A DNA stretch of 64,000 bases from Thermomonas carbonis (GTDB lineage: Bacteria > Pseudomonadota > Gammaproteobacteria > Xanthomonadales > Xanthomonadaceae). Positions within the stretch are counted from its first letter, which is position 1. Every line of letters begins with the position of its first letter. The stretch spans positions 2,576,001 through 2,640,000 of the forward strand of contig NZ_CP060719.1 in assembly GCF_014396975.1 (NCBI RefSeq), in the 5' to 3' direction. Below, in pieces: positions 45,619 through 53,258 of this stretch. The notes beneath the pieces were generated by a model. That model was not told the origin of the DNA and made no database searches. It saw nothing but the letters and a program-made list of their open reading frames with translations. Both the position numbers and the translations under genes were made by a program.

Positions 45619-46041
45619 CTACCAGAACTTCCACCACTTCTTCTCGGCAGAAGGAAGTGGGCCGATGCCCGGGATGAGGATTTCTCCTGGATCATCACTG
45701 GCGTGGAAAAAGCCAACCTCATGCTTGATCGCAAGCTCCCTCATCTTTGCGTGAGCCTCATCTGCCAGAGACCAGCTAAACGCCGAATAGATGACGTTCT
45801 GACCAATGCAATGGTCTGTGACTTCCGGACCTTCAGCGTCTGGGGAAGACAGCGGACCGTTGATTGGCGGGAAGAACTGGATCATCTCCGCGAACCAACG
45901 CTGCAACGCGGGAGAAGCGACTTGAGGATCGTCGTAGCTATGGTCTTCCGACCATTCCGCTTGTTTCGCGTACCAATTCATGAAAGACGCGCGATCGTGC
46001 GGAGCCGCGCTCGGCTCAAATACCATCATGTCAAAGCTCAT
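45619..46041 (-). CDS. Conserved-style hypothetical protein
   Basis: 140 aa, acidic and soluble. MSFDMMVFEPSAAPHDRASF, FPPINGPLSSPDAEG and KHEVGFFHASDD read like a widespread family of small cytosolic proteins of unknown role. Ends KKWWKFW. Confidence 0.65.
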   Translation of the reverse strand: MSFDMMVFEPSAAPHDRASFMNWYAKQAEWSEDHSYDDPQVASPALQRWFAEMIQFFPPINGPLSSPDAEGPEVTDHCIGQNVIYSAFSWSLADEAHAKMRELAIKHEVGFFHASDDPGEILIPGIGPLPSAEKKWWKFW

Positions 46042-46062
46042 AGATGCCTCAAATGTGGTGCC

Positions 46063-46163
46063 TAACGCCTGAGTTAAGCCGGACCGCTGCGCGGAACGGC
46101 GGAGTGGTACACGTCACCATGCAGCCGAGCCGCGAAGCGGTCTCGGCTTGAACGAATTGTTAG
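46063..46163 (-). other. attC 101
   Basis: Type 1, 101 bp. Confidence 0.97.
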
Positions 46164-46777
46164 CTGCGAAAAGGGCTGTGCCTCTCAGAGTGAGACTTCC
46201 GCCTAGTGGGTCTGGAAAACGCATAATTATCTCGTGCCAATTCAAGTAGATCGGACTGAGGGATTGCGGAAGCTACAGCTATACGCTCCGCGTCAATCAA
46301 ACTACCAAGGTAATCTGTCGCCTTTTTAGATAGTGCCAAGAGATGCGCCATTTGCTGTGGGGAGAGGATAGATATCATCTCGGTGCCATCAGTGACGCGG
46401 CTAACGACGGGTTCACCGGTTGGCCCTTCTGAGAGTTCAACTTGAACAAATGATGTTTCATAGTCATTGACAGAGTGGGCCGCCCATTTGTCTCTAAGAT
46501 CTAAAAACTCCTGATGATGCTGTTGTTCGCTCACGCTAAGAATGGCGATAAATTCGTCCTTTATCTTGACCCTTACACCTTGGCCGAATATCCGAGCGTA
46601 GGTGACTAACGATGCAATGCAGAGCCCGCGCATACACCAAATTGAATGAATGTCGGTGTTGGCTGAAATGCTGAGAAGCGTACTGGTCATTTCCGTCGTG
46701 GTAAGGCTATCCAATCTAAGTCCACTTAGATCAGCCAGGCGTTGCGTTTCTTTCTTGCAGTAGTCGAGTAGTGTCAT
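46160..46777 (-). CDS. HEPN-like helical protein
   Basis: 205 aa from MTLLDYCKKETQRL. Mostly helical; FLDLRDKWAAHSVNDYE has the R-x4-6-H arrangement and following polar turn of HEPN-type domains. Function inferred only from that motif; could act in phage defence. Confidence 0.55.
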   Translation of the reverse strand: MTLLDYCKKETQRLADLSGLRLDSLTTTEMTSTLLSISANTDIHSIWCMRGLCIASLVTYARIFGQGVRVKIKDEFIAILSVSEQQHHQEFLDLRDKWAAHSVNDYETSFVQVELSEGPTGEPVVSRVTDGTEMISILSPQQMAHLLALSKKATDYLGSLIDAERIAVASAIPQSDLLELARDNYAFSRPTRRKSHSERHSPFRS

Positions 46778-46785
46778 TTCGCAGC

Positions 46786-46886
46786 TAACGCCTGAGTTAA
46801 GCCGGACCGCTGCGCGGAACGGCGGAGTGGTACACGTCACCATGCAGCCGAGCCGCGAAGCGGTCTCGGCTTGAACGAATTGTTAG
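46786..46886 (-). other. attC 102
   Basis: Type 1, 101 bp. Confidence 0.97.
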
Positions 46887-47218
46887 GCAACATCCCATGG
46901 GCGAACTGCCTCAAGATCCGGGAGGGGTGTCGCGCCTTGACCAACCAACTCTAAGCCAACGAGTGCGCCATGGCGTTCCCAGACGATCAACTGAATGTCT
47001 TCTCCAGCCGATGTCGCGAAGGCCTCCGCGACAATTCGTCCGTTGGAGCCGTCCCCGTCGGGACCAAACCACACGGTCGAGCACCCACACTTGCACAAAG
47101 CGGTGACTTGCAAGGAGCCGACGGACGCGACAAGTTCCGGTGAAATATCAGTCGTGGCCCCCACTTCTAAGGTGCGAAGGACGAGCGCGGCTTCTAGCTT
47201 TGAGATTGGGCGCAACAT
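46883..47218 (-). CDS. Hypothetical protein
   Basis: 111 aa from MLRPISKLEAALVL. CKCGCSTVWF may bind metal; the C-terminal half is beta-rich. Function unknown. Confidence 0.6.
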   Translation of the reverse strand: MLRPISKLEAALVLRTLEVGATTDISPELVASVGSLQVTALCKCGCSTVWFGPDGDGSNGRIVAEAFATSAGEDIQLIVWERHGALVGLELVGQGATPLPDLEAVRPWDVA

Positions 47219-47232
47219 TGTTTGCTGTTGCC

Positions 47233-47333
47233 TAACGCCTGAGTTAAGCCGGACCGCTGCGCGGAACGGCGGAGTGGTACACGTCACCATGCAGCCGAGC
47301 CGCGAAGCGGTCTCGGCTTGAACGAATTGTTAG
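47233..47333 (-). other. attC 103
   Basis: Type 1, 101 bp. Confidence 0.97.
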
Positions 47334-47344
47334 GCCGCCAGCAA

Positions 47345-47668
47345 TTACTCGTGATCATGCATCCAAGCTGGTATGTCGCGCTGCGATTGCAAAAGACGCC
47401 AGACATCTATGTGCTGCGTTTGCTCGACATAAAAAATCAAGTACGGAAAGCCCTTGACTGACCAATGCCTCAGACCAGGAAGGTTCAGCTCGTGAGCGTA
47501 CCGAGGTGATCCAGCCGCTGGGTGGCGGCTAATGTGCGCTATTGCAGTTTCCAGTGCATCCGCAAATGAAAGCGCTATCTCAGATCCAGCTTCCGTAAGG
47601 TAGTGGTCAAACGCCTCTTGAATATCGGCGTCTGCCTGCTTGCGCGGGATTACAGGCTTTGATTTCAC
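47345..47668 (-). CDS. ParE/RelE-family toxin
   Basis: 107 aa, GTG start overlapping the antitoxin stop as GTGA. ADADIQEAFDHYLTEAGSEIALSF, HPAAGSPRYAHELNLPGLRHW and FPYLIFYVEQTQHIDVWRLL are the ParE/RelE fold in order. ParE members poison gyrase, RelE members cleave mRNA; the sequence looks ParE-like. Confidence 0.92.
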   Translation of the reverse strand: MKSKPVIPRKQADADIQEAFDHYLTEAGSEIALSFADALETAIAHISRHPAAGSPRYAHELNLPGLRHWSVKGFPYLIFYVEQTQHIDVWRLLQSQRDIPAWMHDHE

Positions 47669-47907
47669 CGCTTCTTTGGCCTACTTACGCGCAGGCGCAA
47701 ACTATCAAAGTAGTTAGAGGAGAACGGCGTCGCTCCAAGCTCCGACTCAGCACCGGCAAGCAGTAGGTTGCGAAGTCGCAGCCTATCTTGATCCTTGCGG
47801 ATCAGTTCTCGGACATATTCGCTGCTAGTGCCATAGCCACCTTGCGACACTTGCTTGTCGACGAAGGACTTCAACGTTTCTGGCAAAGAGATATTCATTG
47901 TGCTCAT
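47665..47907 (-). CDS. ParD-family antitoxin
   Basis: 80 aa from MSTMNISLPETLKSFVDKQV. SSEYVRELIRKDQDRLRL completes the ribbon-helix-helix domain typical of ParD. Translated ahead of the toxin with a 4-base overlap; a two-gene cassette carrying its own promoter region (47908-47962). Confidence 0.92.
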   Translation of the reverse strand: MSTMNISLPETLKSFVDKQVSQGGYGTSSEYVRELIRKDQDRLRLRNLLLAGAESELGATPFSSNYFDSLRLRVSRPKKR

Positions 47908-47962
47908 GTGGCTGAGCCTACCGCTGTTGGCAAAAATTGGCAAGAAGCTTGATTCGGCGGCC

Positions 47963-48063
47963 TAACGCCTGAGTTAAGCCGGACCGCTGCGCGGAACGGC
48001 GGAGTGGTACACGTCACCATGCAGCCGAGCCGCGAAGCGGTCTCGGCTTGAACGAATTGTTAG
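47963..48063 (-). other. attC 104
   Basis: Type 1, 101 bp. Confidence 0.97.
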
Positions 48064-48075
48064 ACCTTGCCCGAG

Positions 48076-48375
48076 TCATGGCTCATAGCTGCCAAGGAAG
48101 ACTGCGATTCCTATGTAGAACACGACTGCCAAGATAGCGGCGACGCGGGCTTCTTTGCCCAACACGCTATCAGGACCTGCCAGCCGCCGGACACGAACTG
48201 CATTGCCCAGCGCTGAGGGGGCAATGGTCAATGCGACGAAGAAGACAGTGAGCAGAGCGTAGCCATTCATGTTCGGCCTGTACGTGATTTGTACAACACA
48301 AAGACATCCGATCCCTGTTAGCGTCCCCAAAAGCCAGGTAATGGTTCTTTCTGCAATCGCGTCAATCTTTCGCAA
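48076..48375 (-). CDS. Small membrane protein, function unknown
   Basis: 99 aa, TTG start (weakly supported). Three hydrophobic segments (about residues 12-30, 38-55 and 76-95). Confidence 0.5.
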   Translation of the reverse strand: MRKIDAIAERTITWLLGTLTGIGCLCVVQITYRPNMNGYALLTVFFVALTIAPSALGNAVRVRRLAGPDSVLGKEARVAAILAVVFYIGIAVFLGSYEP

Positions 48376-48379
48376 GGTC

Positions 48380-48480
48380 TAACGCCTGAGTTAAGCCGGA
48401 CCGCTGCGCGGAACGGCGGAGTGGTACACGTCACCATGCAGCCGAGCCGCGAAGCGGTCTCGGCTTGAACGAATTGTTAG
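48380..48480 (-). other. attC 105
   Basis: Type 1, 101 bp; the only type 1 site belonging to an ORF-less cassette. Confidence 0.97.
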
Positions 48481-48697
48481 ACCGGGGCCAGCCGTTGCTT
48501 TTGACCAAGATCCCGCGACCTGAGCCGAGTGTAGAGCTGACGATCGCTCTTTACGAGATGCTGAACCCAGAAACGGAGTGCTGGCGCTCTAGCCGGCGCG
48601 GAGTTTGTGGCGAGGCTCAAAGCCCTGGGAACGACGGTGCACGAACGACCGAGATTGGCCTGACGCTTGTTGACCGGCATCTGCCTCTGGACCGGTC
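48481..48697. repeat. ORF-less cassette insert, family A
   Basis: 217 nt; hairpin arms changed to GTGCTGGC / GCCGGCGC, the most diverged stem in the family. The only family A copy next to a type 1 attC. Confidence 0.8.
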
Positions 48698-48798
48698 TAA
48701 CGCCTGAGTTAAGCCGGACCGCTGCGCGGAACGGCGGAGTGGTACACGTCACCATGCAGCCGAGCCGCGAAGCGGTCTCGGCTTGAACGAATTGTTAG
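48698..48798 (-). other. attC 106
   Basis: Type 1, 101 bp. Confidence 0.97.
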
Positions 48799-49122
48799 GC
48801 GGCACCCGGCAGGATGGTCTGGCCTCCCAGCGATCTGCGCGCTCAGCCAGTTGTTCCGGGCACCGCGAGAGCAAGCATGGAAACATCCCCCGGCGATGCC
48901 CTCGGCACATCCAGTGCGACTGCAAGCAAGCACACATGCATCCCTCGGCTCGCAGCGAACTGCTGCGGTCTGCAGATATGCGGCCTCTTTAGCATTTCGG
49001 ACCGGGATGCCTTGAGTAGTGCAGTGCCGTGACCACGGCATTTGTGCGGACACCGTTTCTGCGCCGGCTGAGCAGCCGATAAGGGTGAGGCCAAGTACCA
49101 GGATGGTCATGAGCCGATGCAT
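48709..49122 (-). CDS. Cys-rich lipoprotein with attC-encoded tail
   Basis: 137 aa. Lipobox TLIGC near residue 17. Eight cysteines in the mature part (CEPRDACVLACSRTGC, GGCFHAC). No stop before the attC, so about 29 residues are site-encoded ([16 protein letters not shown]...). Confidence 0.6.
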   Translation of the reverse strand: MHRLMTILVLGLTLIGCSAGAETVSAQMPWSRHCTTQGIPVRNAKEAAYLQTAAVRCEPRDACVLACSRTGCAEGIAGGCFHACSRGARNNWLSAQIAGRPDHPAGCRLTIRSSRDRFAARLHGDVYHSAVPRSGPA

Positions 49123-49135
49123 TTTCTTTGCCGCC

Positions 49136-49236
49136 TAACGCCTGAGTTAAGCCGGACCGCTGCGCGGAACGGCGGAGTGGTACACGTCACCATGCAGCCG
49201 AGCCGCGAAGCGGTCTCGGCTTGAACGAATTGTTAG
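49136..49236 (-). other. attC 107
   Basis: Type 1, 101 bp. Confidence 0.97.
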
Positions 49237-49583
49237 GTGCCGGGAGCTTTGCGAAGAAAGTTGTATTCCGATTCTTGAACACTCTTTCCCCATAGTTGTC
49301 CGTCGCGGTGCACCAGAACGCCGTTGCCAAAAAACCGTAGGGCGATGTTGCCGTCAGAAACGAGGATTCCGCCGCTCGGTGGGGTAGCGTAGTGCTTCGA
49401 CCAGCCAGTTTGGTTCCGCGAAATCCAGTTCTGAAGTGCCTGGTGGTCCGGTGTCCCAGGCTGAATTTCATGGACGGATGTGCTGTCACGAACGGAAACT
49501 GGTGTGTCCGGTGACAAGGACAGTTCAAGCCGTGCACTGCATGCGGCGAGGATAAGAAGGCTTGTTAGCATCAGCTTGCGCAT
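49233..49583 (-). CDS. Putative lipoprotein
   Basis: 116 aa from MRKLMLTSLL after GGGAAAT. Lipobox LILAAC at about residues 10-15. Function unknown. Confidence 0.65.
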   Translation of the reverse strand: MRKLMLTSLLILAACSARLELSLSPDTPVSVRDSTSVHEIQPGTPDHQALQNWISRNQTGWSKHYATPPSGGILVSDGNIALRFFGNGVLVHRDGQLWGKSVQESEYNFLRKAPGT

Positions 49584-49599
49584 ATTTCCCACCGGCACC

Positions 49600-49705
49600 T
49601 AACGCCTGAGTTAAGCCGAAACGCGTAGCGGAGGTAAAAACATGGCACGCTTTTCCGCCATGTTTTTGCCGGAGCGAAGTGGTTTCGGCTTGGACGAATT
49701 GTTAG
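49600..49705 (-). other. attC 108
   Basis: Type 6, 106 bp, with CTTGGACG. Confidence 0.95.
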
Positions 49706-50007
49706 GTGGCATTTGCGATCTCACTTGCTGCCAGCAGAGCTTCTATGGCCGCGGTTGCGTCAGAAGAGTTGACCGCGAACCCTTGAGCGCTGACGATCTG
49801 CCGGCCGTCCAGTGCCAAGGACTCACTGACATACGACGAGTCACTCCACCAAGTGAAACGGGCTACTGCATGCGGAGAGTCAAAGTCGAAGCGAACGGCA
49901 GGATTGTCCGAAGGCTCCGTATAGGTGATCTCGCAAGGCGCTGTGAGTGCGACGACGACGCAGTCTGCAGTTCTGCTCTCAATCAAAAGTTGCGAAGAAT
50001 TTTCCAT
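49702..50007 (-). CDS. Hypothetical protein, cassette abutting the inner attI-like site
   Basis: 101 aa, soluble, beta-rich (VRFDFDSPHAVARFTWWSDSSY) with an alanine-rich C-terminus. Its start is six bases from the attI-like junction at 50014, so it is placed as a first cassette of an older platform would be. Confidence 0.6.
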   Translation of the reverse strand: MENSSQLLIESRTADCVVVALTAPCEITYTEPSDNPAVRFDFDSPHAVARFTWWSDSSYVSESLALDGRQIVSAQGFAVNSSDATAAIEALLAASEIANAT

Positions 50008-50013
50008 GCCACC

Positions 50014-50080
50014 TAACGCCTAGTAGGTTGTGATTTTGCAGCATAGCGCCGCGTTGTTCAGGTTTGGACGACGTAATGCG
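50014..50080 (-). other. Inner attI-like site (diverged copy)
   Basis: Begins TAACGCCTAGTAGGTTGTGA, matching the attI at 51030 at all but one of the first 20 positions, where every attC has TAACGCCTGAGTTAAG. Further shared blocks follow in order: ATAGYGCYGC, TTGTTCA, GTTTGG. Confidence 0.75.
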
Positions 50081-50203
50081 GGCGCCGTTCCTTTGAAGAT
50101 CAAGAGCTTAGCTTCTGTGAAGAATATTTGCATTCCATGCATATTCCGCAGATCTGAGGCGATAAATCTTATTGCCGCGCTTTTGAAGGTGATCGGAGCG
50201 GCC
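50081..50203. other. Unassigned rest of the 190-nt attI-bearing segment
   Basis: No gene and no attC. Holds an imperfect inverted repeat at 50122-50146 (GAATATTTGCAT / ATGCATATTC). It could be the leader and promoter region of a former platform, but no convincing promoter boxes are visible. It is not similar to the sequence beyond the present attI. Confidence 0.5.
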
Positions 50204-50306
50204 TAACGCCTGAGTTAAGCCGCACCGATTTGCGGCGTTGTGCGAGTGAAGATTAGCAAGACTCGCACGACGCCGCGAAGCGGTGTCGGCTTGGACGAAT
50301 TGTTAG
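50204..50306 (-). other. attC 109
   Basis: Type 3, 103 bp. Confidence 0.96.
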
Positions 50307-50492
50307 CCCGCTGAAGCCGGCTGTTCTTGCAGATTGGAAGCTTAAGTGGGTTCATTTGAAGCCAAGAAATCTTCCACCGCGCGGAGTTGTAGCGGGTTTG
50401 AGGTGCGACGGAGCGCGGGCGAGAGGCGATCAGGGAAGCTCTTCTGGCTTTGCCGAGAATGCTCTACGCGATGATCTATTTCTTCTGCGGGC
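50307..50492. repeat. ORF-less cassette insert, family C
   Basis: 186 nt; close copy of 6073-6258. Second cassette from the current attI. Confidence 0.85.
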
Positions 50493-50593
50493 TAACGCCT
50501 GAGTTAAGCCGGGCCGCTGCGCGGAACGGCGGAGTGGTACACGTCACCATGCAGCCGAGCCGCGAAGCGGTCTCGGCTTGAACGAATTGTTAG
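50493..50593 (-). other. attC 110
   Basis: Type 1, 101 bp; first attC of the array. Confidence 0.97.
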
Positions 50594-51021
50594 GGCGCAC
50601 CCGCGATTACCCACGGCAGCTCAACAATGAAGCTAAAGCATACTGCCCCTTCCACATGAAACTCGCTTTGCGCGAGAGGGGAAGGTTTGGTAAAGGTGAA
50701 GTCGAGTGGACCCGATGGATCTAGCCCGGAGCCATCCGTGAGCGGCGCCTCGCCGAAGAAATAGAACTCTCCGCCGTATAGGTGCTTGCCTGACTCCGTT
50801 TGGTTGTACTCATAAGTCTCGGCCGGCTGGTCAAGGTCGATACCGGCCTGCTCGAAGAAGGCGAGCACGGCAAGAGGAAACGGAGTGCTTCCTAGAGCCC
50901 GAAAATTTTGGCAGTACGCGCAGGAGCATTTGTAGGCCGAGGCAGCGAGCGCCTCGTAAGTGCGCCGTGTGCGGGCCTGGTCTATTGAGACCTCAACTCC
51001 CCCGATCTCGACGATGTTCAT
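50590..51021 (-). CDS. Hypothetical protein, first cassette
   Basis: 143 aa, acidic. CSCAYCQNF (residues 32-40) and a C-terminal beta region (SEFHVEGAVCFSFIVELPW). Similar small proteins with CxCxxC near the N-terminus are common in accessory DNA; function unknown. Being next to attI it should be the best expressed from any cassette promoter. Confidence 0.65.
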   Translation of the reverse strand: MNIVEIGGVEVSIDQARTRRTYEALAASAYKCSCAYCQNFRALGSTPFPLAVLAFFEQAGIDLDQPAETYEYNQTESGKHLYGGEFYFFGEAPLTDGSGLDPSGPLDFTFTKPSPLAQSEFHVEGAVCFSFIVELPWVIAGAP

Positions 51022-51029
51022 GTGCGCCC

Positions 51030-51095
51030 TAACGCCTAGTAGCTTGTGAACACGTGGGATAGTGCTGCTTGTTCATTCAAGTTTGGTTGGATCGA
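51030..51095 (-). other. attI-like site of the current platform
   Basis: The cassette junction CCCTAA/CGCCTAGTAG departs from the attC consensus right after TAACGCCT and lies between the first cassette and divergent intI. A second copy of its pattern occurs at 50014. The exact outer boundary cannot be read by eye. Confidence 0.8.
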
Positions 51096-51151
51096 GGAAA
51101 AATCCTACCGTAAAAACAACGTATTACCGAATGGGCATGCATGGGGTGGTG

Positions 51152-51167
51152 TGCACGATGGCGTGCA
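51152..51167. promoter_or_regulatory. Inverted repeat between attI and intI
   Basis: TGCACG ATGG CGTGCA, a perfect 6-bp inverted repeat 22 bases before the intI start and within the region expected to hold the intI and cassette promoters. Could be an operator; no known repressor box recognised. Confidence 0.35.
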
Positions 51168-51189
51168 AATCCAGCACAGGCGCGATCAT

Positions 51190-52226
51190 ATGCTTTATGT
51201 CGATGAAAGCTCGAAATATCCCAGGCTCTTGGCTGAGCCGAGCTGGGAGGGTGATGAGTCGCAGTTGGCGAGGATATCGGCGTTGGTCGAAGACGTTCGC
51301 CGCGTGTTGCGAGCTCGGCATTACAGCGTCAGGACCGAGGCGGTGTATCTGGGGTGGGTCAAGCGGTTCATCTTGGCGAATCGGTTGAGGCATCCATCGG
51401 AGATGGGCCAGCGGGAAGTCGAGGCCTTCCTCACCCGGTTAGCGGTGGAGGGGCAAGTCTCGTCATCGACCCAGAACCAGGCGTTGTCGGCGCTGTTGTT
51501 CTTGTACCGCGATGTCTTGCGGGCGCGCATGGACTGGATGGAGGACGTGGTGCGTGCGAAGCGGGCGCGCAAGCTGCCGGTGGTGTTGGCAGGGGAAGAA
51601 GTGCGGTTGCTGCTGGCGCAGCTGGACGGACGTGCGTGGTTGCTGGCCAGTGTGCTGTACGGAACCGGGATGCGCTTGATGGAGTGCTTGCGCTTGCGGG
51701 TGAAGGATGTTGATTTCGCGCGGGGCGAAATCACCGTGCGGGATGGCAAGGGCGGAAAGGATCGGCGCACGGTATTGCCGCGGAGCCTGGTGGAGCCCTT
51801 GCAGTTGGAAGTCGAGCGTGCCCGTATCCTGCATGCAAGCGACCTCGCTGCGGGCTTCGGGCGGTCTGGCTGCCGCATGCCCTGGCGCGCAAGTATGTCA
51901 ATGGGCCACGCGAATTCGCGTGGCAGTACGTCTTCCCGGCGCGCAATCGCTCGCTGGATCCGCGCGACGATAGCGAACGACGGCATCACGTGGACGCGGA
52001 GTTCGTGTCGCGGGCGCTGAAGCAGGCGCGAGACCGGGCGGCAATCCACAAACCTGTCACGGCGCACACGTTGCGGCATTCCTTCGCGACCCATTTGCTG
52101 GAGGCGGGCTACGACATCCGCACCATCCAGGAACTGCTGGGGCACAAGGACGTGGCGACGACGCAGATCTATACCCACGTGTTGAATCGCGGGCCGAATG
52201 CTGTGCGCAGTCCGCTGGATCGCTGA
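51190..52226 (+). pseudogene. intI: Integron integrase, frameshifted
   Basis: Tyrosine recombinase read in two frames. The first (from MLYVDESSKYPRLL at 51190) contains the N-terminal SAM-like domain, then [21 protein letters not shown] with the first catalytic Arg. One G is missing in the CGGTC at about 51862-51866. The second frame resumes with the integron-specific insert ([18 protein letters not shown]) and [19 protein letters not shown] and the Tyr of TTQIYTH. Without the missing base it would be about 345 aa, a normal IntI length. Confidence 0.9.
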
Positions 52227-52304
52227 GGCAGGCGCTGGCGGGCGTACGCTGATGTCTTTCGCAGCACGGAGGTGGGACGGTGATGGGGTAACGAACAGGC
52301 GGGT

Positions 52305-53258
52305 GTGGAATCACGGAATGCGCTGCTGGCGCAAGTCGGTCTGGCGTGTCGTCGACGGCATCTGAGCAGGAGCACGGAGGCGGCGTATCGATATTGGGCG
52401 AGGCGTCTCATTGACTTCCTGGACGGACAGGCGCTGGAGACGGCCGGGGTGGTGCGTTTTCTCGACCAGCTGGCGTCGGTGGAGCATGTGTCGGCAAGTA
52501 CGCATCTGCAGGCATTGCACGGCGTGCTGTTCCTGTTTCGGCATGTCCTGGAGCGCGAGGTGGGACGGTTGGATGGGTTGCGCACCATGCGACGTCCGGC
52601 CCGGGTGCCGGTGGTGCTATCGGTCGAGGAAGTGCGGGCGATCCTCAATGCGATGCGCGGGATGCCGCGGCTGGTAGCGGCGTTGCTGTATGGCTCGGGG
52701 ATGCGCGTCGGTGAGGCGCTGGCCTTGCGGATCAAGGATGTGGATTTCCGGGCTGGCACGATTACAGTGCGGGCCGGCAAGGGGGCAAAGGATCGCGTGG
52801 CGATCTTGCCGCGGCGCGTGCGCGATTCGATGCACCGATTGGCGCTGTGGCGGTTGGCCTTGCACAAGCGCGACCTGGCGCAAGGAGGCGGGCATGCGCC
52901 GTTGCCGAATGCGCTGGAGCGCAAGTATCCGTCGGCATCGCGGGCGTTCGGTTGGCAATTCATGTTTGCCTCAAGCGCGGTGCGGCCATGTCCTAGAACC
53001 GGCCATCGGCTGCGCTGGCATCTGTCGCCGTCCACGGTACAGGAGGCATTCCACGAGGCGTTGCGGATGACCAATTGCCACAAGCAGGCGTCGCTGCATG
53101 TGCTGCGGCATTCGTTTGCGACCCATTTGCTGGCGCAGGGAGTCGACATCCGCACGATCCAGCAGTTGCTGGGGCATCGCCATCTGGACACCACGATGAT
53201 CTACACGCATGTGCACCAACCGGTGCGCGGCACGGTCAGTCCGCTGGATCGCTTTTAG
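52305..53258 (+). CDS. intI: Integron integrase, intact
   Basis: 317 aa, GTG start, 78 bp after the first intI and in the same direction. Tyrosine recombinase with all catalytic residues: Arg in [17 protein letters not shown], His of LLGHRH and Tyr of TTMIYTHV. The integron-specific insert is present ([19 protein letters not shown]). Clearly a different protein from its neighbour, not a tandem copy. Probably supplies the recombination activity for the array. Confidence 0.93.

Follow-up and report, generated by a model that had tools for sequence, protein, structure and literature searches.

In the usual view of integrons, attI is fixed and it is the cassettes that move. In class 1 and class 2 integrons, delta-attI cassettes are described that are excised and inserted by IntI1, carry attI sequence at their downstream end instead of an attC site, and cross over at the attI core (PMC12901181). 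They consist of a gene followed by 14–244 nt of attI1 or attI2, the 244-nt figure referring to one type that carries this length of the attI2 region (PMC12901181). These cassettes are the closest counterpart found in print to the segment described here, which likewise has attI-derived sequence at its downstream end, but differs in having no ORF before the attI part: it is probably built of platform-head sequence throughout and holds no gene. Furthermore, delta-attI cassettes belong to mobile integrons, whereas the present copies lie in chromosomal arrays, have diverged (128/190 positions shared between the two species) and number at most three per array.

Two other systems bear comparison. The gene-less promoter cassettes of the Vibrio superintegron (PMC11014356) are also short and lie in a large chromosomal array, but they are defined by promoter activity and the abstract of that paper mentions no attI end, whereas no promoter was recognised in our unit. 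CALINs, which are clusters of attC sites without an integron-integrase (PMC12444791), recall the intI-less attI sites described below, most of which adjoin attC sites; they differ in that here an attI-like site is retained at the array, and the window copy lies inside a complete integron. The same study of Xanthomonas integrons reported CALINs and a recurring 'empty' cassette, for which the consulted part of the text does not mention attI (PMC12444791). Among open PMC texts, represented mainly by titles and the openings of abstracts, we found neither an attI-only cassette in a chromosomal integron nor attI-headed arrays without intI.

The window, that is the whole 64,000-nt stretch analysed here (G000:C1:2576001-2640000), belongs to a 3.46-Mb one-contig genome and is filled up to 51 kb by the Thermomonas superintegron, whose cassettes lie on the minus strand and point away from intI. 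Loci of same-genus genomes agree fully or almost fully with named records (L147 with T. beijingensis L041, L139 with Thermomonas L021, L142 with Thermomonas L010), which places the window in Thermomonas. Its relevant features are the following.

49599–50013, minus strand: array-order downstream cassette, with an ORF at 49702–50007 (Pfam TriTu immunity protein) and attC at 49599–49706.
50013–50026, plus strand: attI core plus signature CTAACGCCTAGTAG, the same as in the platform attI and matched by the attI profile.
50017–50206, minus strand: attI-ended cassette of 190 nt, measured from one G|TT crossover point to the other, both boundaries being CTAAC cores.
50027–50070, plus strand: further attI-like blocks, of which GTGA, ATA.CGCC and TGTTCAGGTTTG are retained in the copies of a sister species (G237).
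50098–50112, plus strand: leader block GATCAAGAGCTTAGC, counterpart of GATCAAGGNCTTGCC, which lies between attI and intI in relatives; supported by the profile alignment, which reaches 50112, and by a consensus.
50138–50198, plus strand: block apparently homologous to the last leader bases and first intI codons of Rhodanobacter-type platforms (score 48 against 25.2 ± 3.0 for shuffles); the ATG is AAA here.
50203–50307, minus strand: attC of the array-order upstream cassette, found by the attC detector.
51029–51189, plus strand: platform attI and leader (profile match, E 3.7e-16), ending at the probable intI-1 start at 51190.
51190–52226, plus strand: intI-1, integron integrase, with the frame broken near 51868; two pieces each match TIGR02249, and tblastn gives two segments in different frames.
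52305–53258, plus strand: intI-2, second integron integrase, intact, 317 aa (TIGR02249, 327.5 bits against a cut-off of 265).

The TAACGCCT core occurs 112 times in the window: an attC sequence (TAACGCCTGAG) follows it in 110 cases, and TAACGCCTAG in the other two, at 50014 and 51030. The site at 51030 is the platform attI, 161 nt ahead of the probable intI-1 start. The one at 50014 lies about 1 kb and two cassettes from the platform, has no adjoining intI gene and, in cassette orientation, forms the downstream end of the segment, i.e. the usual place of attC. At the opposite end, GGCCTAAC at 50203 is the crossover core, common to the attC of the neighbouring cassette. The segment is a cassette in that it is a discrete, core-bounded unit between different neighbours, and it has no attC: our home-made detector, which recovers 10/10 attC in 46001–51300 and gives one false match on one strand and none on the other in 10.7 kb of chromosomal sequence, found no attC inside 50014–50200, and no attC fold was detected inside any of the three G237 copies either. 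No ORF of at least 60 aa lies within 50014–50203, a weak test, because 190 nt leave room for no more than 63 codons. Towards the far end of the segment there is a short frame on the plus strand, which in the alignment is broken by a 1-nt deletion in one of these copies (G237c). As for a known RNA, no Rfam family reached its gathering score in 115 kb, and a low-E miRNA match fell on the hairpin of a neighbouring attC.

Within the window, CTAACGCCTAGTAG occurs only at the segment and at the platform attI. It is exact in both and is followed by TTGTGA and further blocks up to about 58 nt. Since TAACGCCT is common to all attC, the attI-specific part consists of AGTAG..TTGTGA and the later blocks. 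The next 62 nt, compared in register between the two sites, score 27 against 15.7 ± 3.1 for dinucleotide shuffles (2/1000 as high), and a free local alignment of the rest of the segment after the common start with the platform attI and intI start is at chance level (683/1000 shuffles as high); direct likeness to the window's own attI is thus confined to about the first 60 nt.

We ran a profile of 20 attI–intI leaders on the 64 kb: those of the window, G237 and a third Thermomonas species (G249), plus 17 more, some of which come from further Thermomonas. It matched the platform attI at 51028 (E 3.7e-16) and the segment at 50012–50112 (E 4.2e-5), with the third-best match at E 1.5 and no attC core among the matches listed to E 100. 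When the attI sites of the window, G237 and G249 were removed from the profile, both sites were still at the top; the match to the segment had E 0.067 and covered little more than the core. A 35-leader profile matched only the core in the cassettes (E 2.4) and also gave a reverse-strand match for the identical pair of G237 copies, G237a/b (E 0.052). In the reverse direction, a second cassette model, made from four cassette sequences with that of another genus (G196) included, was run over 86 sources amounting to 700 kb. After the five copies, which match by construction, it returned to E 1 only three further matches, the genuine attI sites of the window, G237 and G249 (E 1.2e-4, 4.4e-4 and 0.0033), and the attI of other genera in loci L002–L081 were not among the matches at E 1. 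Over 398 genomes of the order, the only such site it found was an attI without intI in G653, a genome of a different family (E 1.6e-4, calculated for one genome). Together, the leader profile and the cassette model indicate that homology to the attI of this Thermomonas group holds in both directions, and on these alignments the segment's end is homologous to the attI of related platforms. With whole-cassette blastn, neither the window copy nor G237a matched any linked leader at E 0.01. The sequence-only reading had placed here a second attI-like site inside the array, in a segment without attC and with a normal cassette core at its other end, and all of this agrees with the detector, the profile and the core at 50203. 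Its claim of an attI signature with further blocks holds for CTAACGCCTAGTAG, TTGTGA and the blocks to about 58 nt, but not for TAACGCCT taken by itself, which is not attI-specific.

The segment recurs in relatives. The sister species G237 carries three copies (779116–779304, 790699–790887 and 798282–798469), located 18–37 kb from that genome's platform attI at 761257, each with attC-bearing neighbours on both sides. Two of them are identical and the third agrees with them at 186/199 alignment columns. The window copy and the identical pair are alike at 128/190 positions (E 8.8e-21 for homology): in the attI part, kept positions amount to 14/14, 13/19 and 19/25 in successive blocks, and beyond it to 10/27, 14/15 (the GATCAAGAGCTTAGC block, which is 14/15 identical in the G237 copies), 10/30 and, in the distal part, 48/60. 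The four intact copies have equal boundaries at both ends in two species, and the cassettes before and after them have nothing in common except their attC ends. As unrelated downstream cassettes are joined at the exact core, crossovers at the attI-like end are implied. The exact core boundaries, the homology to attI and the recurrence with equal boundaries between unrelated neighbours are demonstrated, and they bear out the proposals that the segment behaves as a cassette with attI in the place of its attC, and that the attI is mobile. The presence of copies of a docking site in a relative suggests that such sites can move like captured genes.

A decayed fifth copy, with its attI core mutated, lies inside an array of G196 (copies model, E 2.2e-15), and a copy of this type was seen in 1/27 genomes of that genus; full-length matches occur in just 2/25 Thermomonas genomes. 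The copies model gave weak matches in G332, G339, G158, G362 and G333 (E 0.005–0.08), and a pattern allowing three mismatches matched G135, G382, G265, G368, G331 and G254, a search in which the backwards control also matches many genomes. No copies were found on plasmids in PLSDB at blastn sensitivity, and the one pattern searched in viral contigs gave no exact match.

The distal half of the window copy, with the cores removed, was compared with 36 attI–leader–intI starts after a likeness had been noticed by eye. The best score, 48, was obtained with Rhodanobacter sp. C06 (L003), followed by L129, L005, L019, L013 and L002; shuffles gave 25.2 ± 3.0 with a maximum of 35, and 0/200 were as high as 48. 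The aligned part spans the last leader bases and the first intI codons, so that the unit looks like attI, leader and approximately 12–15 intI codons. The same test applied by itself to the other copies gave shuffles as high in 29/200 (G237a/b), 4/200 (G237c) and 159/200 (G196) cases; the putative distal homology to intI is carried by the window copy and by the homology of that copy with the others.

Tandem intI pairs are present in three Thermomonas species (window 51190–53258, G237:C1 759013–761008 and G249:C1 2175897–2177892). Both genes are open in G237 and G249, where intI-1 is a single frame, and the frameshift at 51868 in the window reflects either decay or a sequencing error. In the window, intI-1 and intI-2 are 41% alike, and intI-2 is 63–65% identical to the second gene of G237 and G249. 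The next relatives of intI-2 (53–58%) are in G150, G051 and G199, where the match list shows no second integrase next to them. To E 5, the cassette model recognised no site in the retrieved loci of these three genomes, a second such gene of G150 being left out; two of the three show another attI-like core, CTAACTACCTATTAG, by eye. The sequence-only reading had supposed that each of two integrases once had its own attI: the tandem pair is real, but because the loci of the lone intI-2 relatives hold no site recognised by the cassette model, the data do not support the view that the segment came from an attI belonging to the second integrase.

We searched 395 genomes of the family for a common attI pattern; 63 contain it, 28 of these at two or more places, which makes 102 places altogether. 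We retrieved 82 of these and left out 20; removal of L206 (no pattern match) and L173 (duplicate) and addition of L129 gave 81 distinct sites. An intI gene lies within 700 nt of 43 of them and 38 have none, in a sample enriched for multi-site genomes, as beyond the first 30 most sites were taken because the genome had several; among the first 30 loci, which were picked automatically, 9 have no intI within 700 nt. Sites resembling attC are found on the array side in 27 of the 38 intI-less cases and on the other side in six, where about five false matches are expected (1 in 10.7 kb); the only clear run of three attC-like sites on that other side is in G013. We note that intI-less attI sites occur in many Lysobacteraceae genomes (L181–L185 in G324, L129 in G653 and L151–L232), most of those examined lying beside attC.

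Two genomes provide further detail. G013, of another genus (L176, L233 and L234), holds an independent 212-nt attI-ended unit inside an array, separated from the platform attI of the same array by 20,282 bp and 40 attC-like sites, counted across contig ends; it carries a TTGAC-N18-GAGCAT-like element. G324 holds five attI modules (L181–L185), two of which are followed by intI sequence, cut short in one of them, and three of which have no intI. The three and the two are 94–95% identical up to 196–198 nt from the core, 12 codons into intI; past this point the intI-less modules continue into other DNA, in two different contexts, whereas the two intI-linked modules are alike up to 371 nt. More broadly, 15/38 intI-less sites resemble some linked leader beyond 106 nt, and the likeness ends at 191–199 nt in 11 of them, at 176 in one, and further on in three (234, 255 and 286); 76/78 linked leaders continue beyond 215 nt. 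Because intI codons after approximately 198 nt vary anyway, a sharp breakpoint is demonstrated for G324 only.

We consider it likely that the segment is a cassette derived from a platform head (attI, the attI–intI leader and about the first 12–15 intI codons), now worn and without a gene, which moved via its attI end; with no attC present, its recombination site would be this attI-like end. The earlier suggestion of a fossil platform, in which an older head lost its intI and stayed in place while a newer platform and cassettes were added in front of it, draws on the same resemblance to a platform head and on the frequency of intI-less attI in the family (38/81 distinct sites of the enriched sample, 9/30 automatic picks). 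It is nonetheless improbable for a head left in place, given that the three G237 copies are dispersed among cassettes, two of them being identical and all with attC-bearing neighbours on both sides, and that the boundaries are equal in two species; what survives of the suggestion is that the cassette is probably a relic of a platform's head. We regard as very unlikely that the attI-like end is dead and that the segment is carried along solely as a 5' extension of the attC cassette that follows it. Such an end need not be active, and in the G196 copy the core is lost, but the downstream cassettes of the four intact copies are unrelated and joined at the exact core. Finally, the possibility of a degenerate attC, with a likeness to attI limited by chance to the first 20 bases, is rejected as scarcely credible: the first eight bases are indeed common to all attC, but neither the window copy nor the three G237 copies contain an attC fold, and the profile match and the recurrence refute this reading.

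The segment could also have been kept as a gene-less promoter for the cassettes that follow, as in Vibrio, an explanation that is compatible with a cassette derived from a platform head but that we hold to be rather unlikely. Gene-less cassettes with promoter activity are already known (PMC11014356). A TTGA[C/T]-N16-18-[G/T]A..[A/C/T]T element directed into the array was found in 19/35 leaders, in 18 of them at the same place, and in 11/43 intI-linked and 13/38 intI-less attI sites against 1% of shuffles; the G013 unit has one. The element is absent, however, from the window copy, from G237a and from the window's own platform leader, and no sigma-70-like match was seen in 49600–51400. The lack of a consensus promoter is a weak argument, as a heading of the Vibrio paper states that such promoters are not identifiable in silico (PMC11014356).

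The origin of a platform-head cassette could be pictured as follows. An integrase would once have recombined attI with a same-orientation G|TT site near the intI start, releasing the interval as a circle with attI as its sole site. Recombination of attI with attC (or with another attI) may have brought such circles into arrays, from which they could leave in the same manner; an attI x attC exchange would allow insertion ahead of any cassette, which would yield the observed arrangement. Wherever it is located, a copy would provide a second attI in the middle of an array, this last step being the least certain. A cassette of attI and leader alone blurs the divide between the fixed and mobile parts of integrons. 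It could create new insertion points deep in silent arrays, its kin could account for arrays far from any integrase, and it offers a natural, sequence-defined case in which to test attI x attC exchange in sedentary integrons and the origin of new arrays.

A more general scheme can be put forward tentatively, and we view it as open to considerable doubt: the integron integrases of Lysobacterales might spread their own landing site as a module of about 200 nt (attI, leader promoter and the first 12 or so intI codons), with the attI core at one end and a conserved G|TT in intI at the other, the circle giving rise to an attI-ended cassette or to satellite arrays served in trans. The motif at about 196–198 nt would be the second recombination site. 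By our reckoning the far boundary of the cassette falls 5–10 nt past the G324 breakpoint, which speaks against the platform-head reading. The sequence at this breakpoint (GTGATAAC, GGTGTAAC and similar; GTTATCAC and GTTACACC on the other strand) recurs in many leaders, as judged by eye.

As a separate observation on the leaders of 35 platforms, the GTGATAAC/GGTGTAAC-like motif lies approximately 190–200 nt from the attI core, at intI codons 9–12, where the protein looks variable. Read on the opposite strand, it looks by eye like an integrase core.
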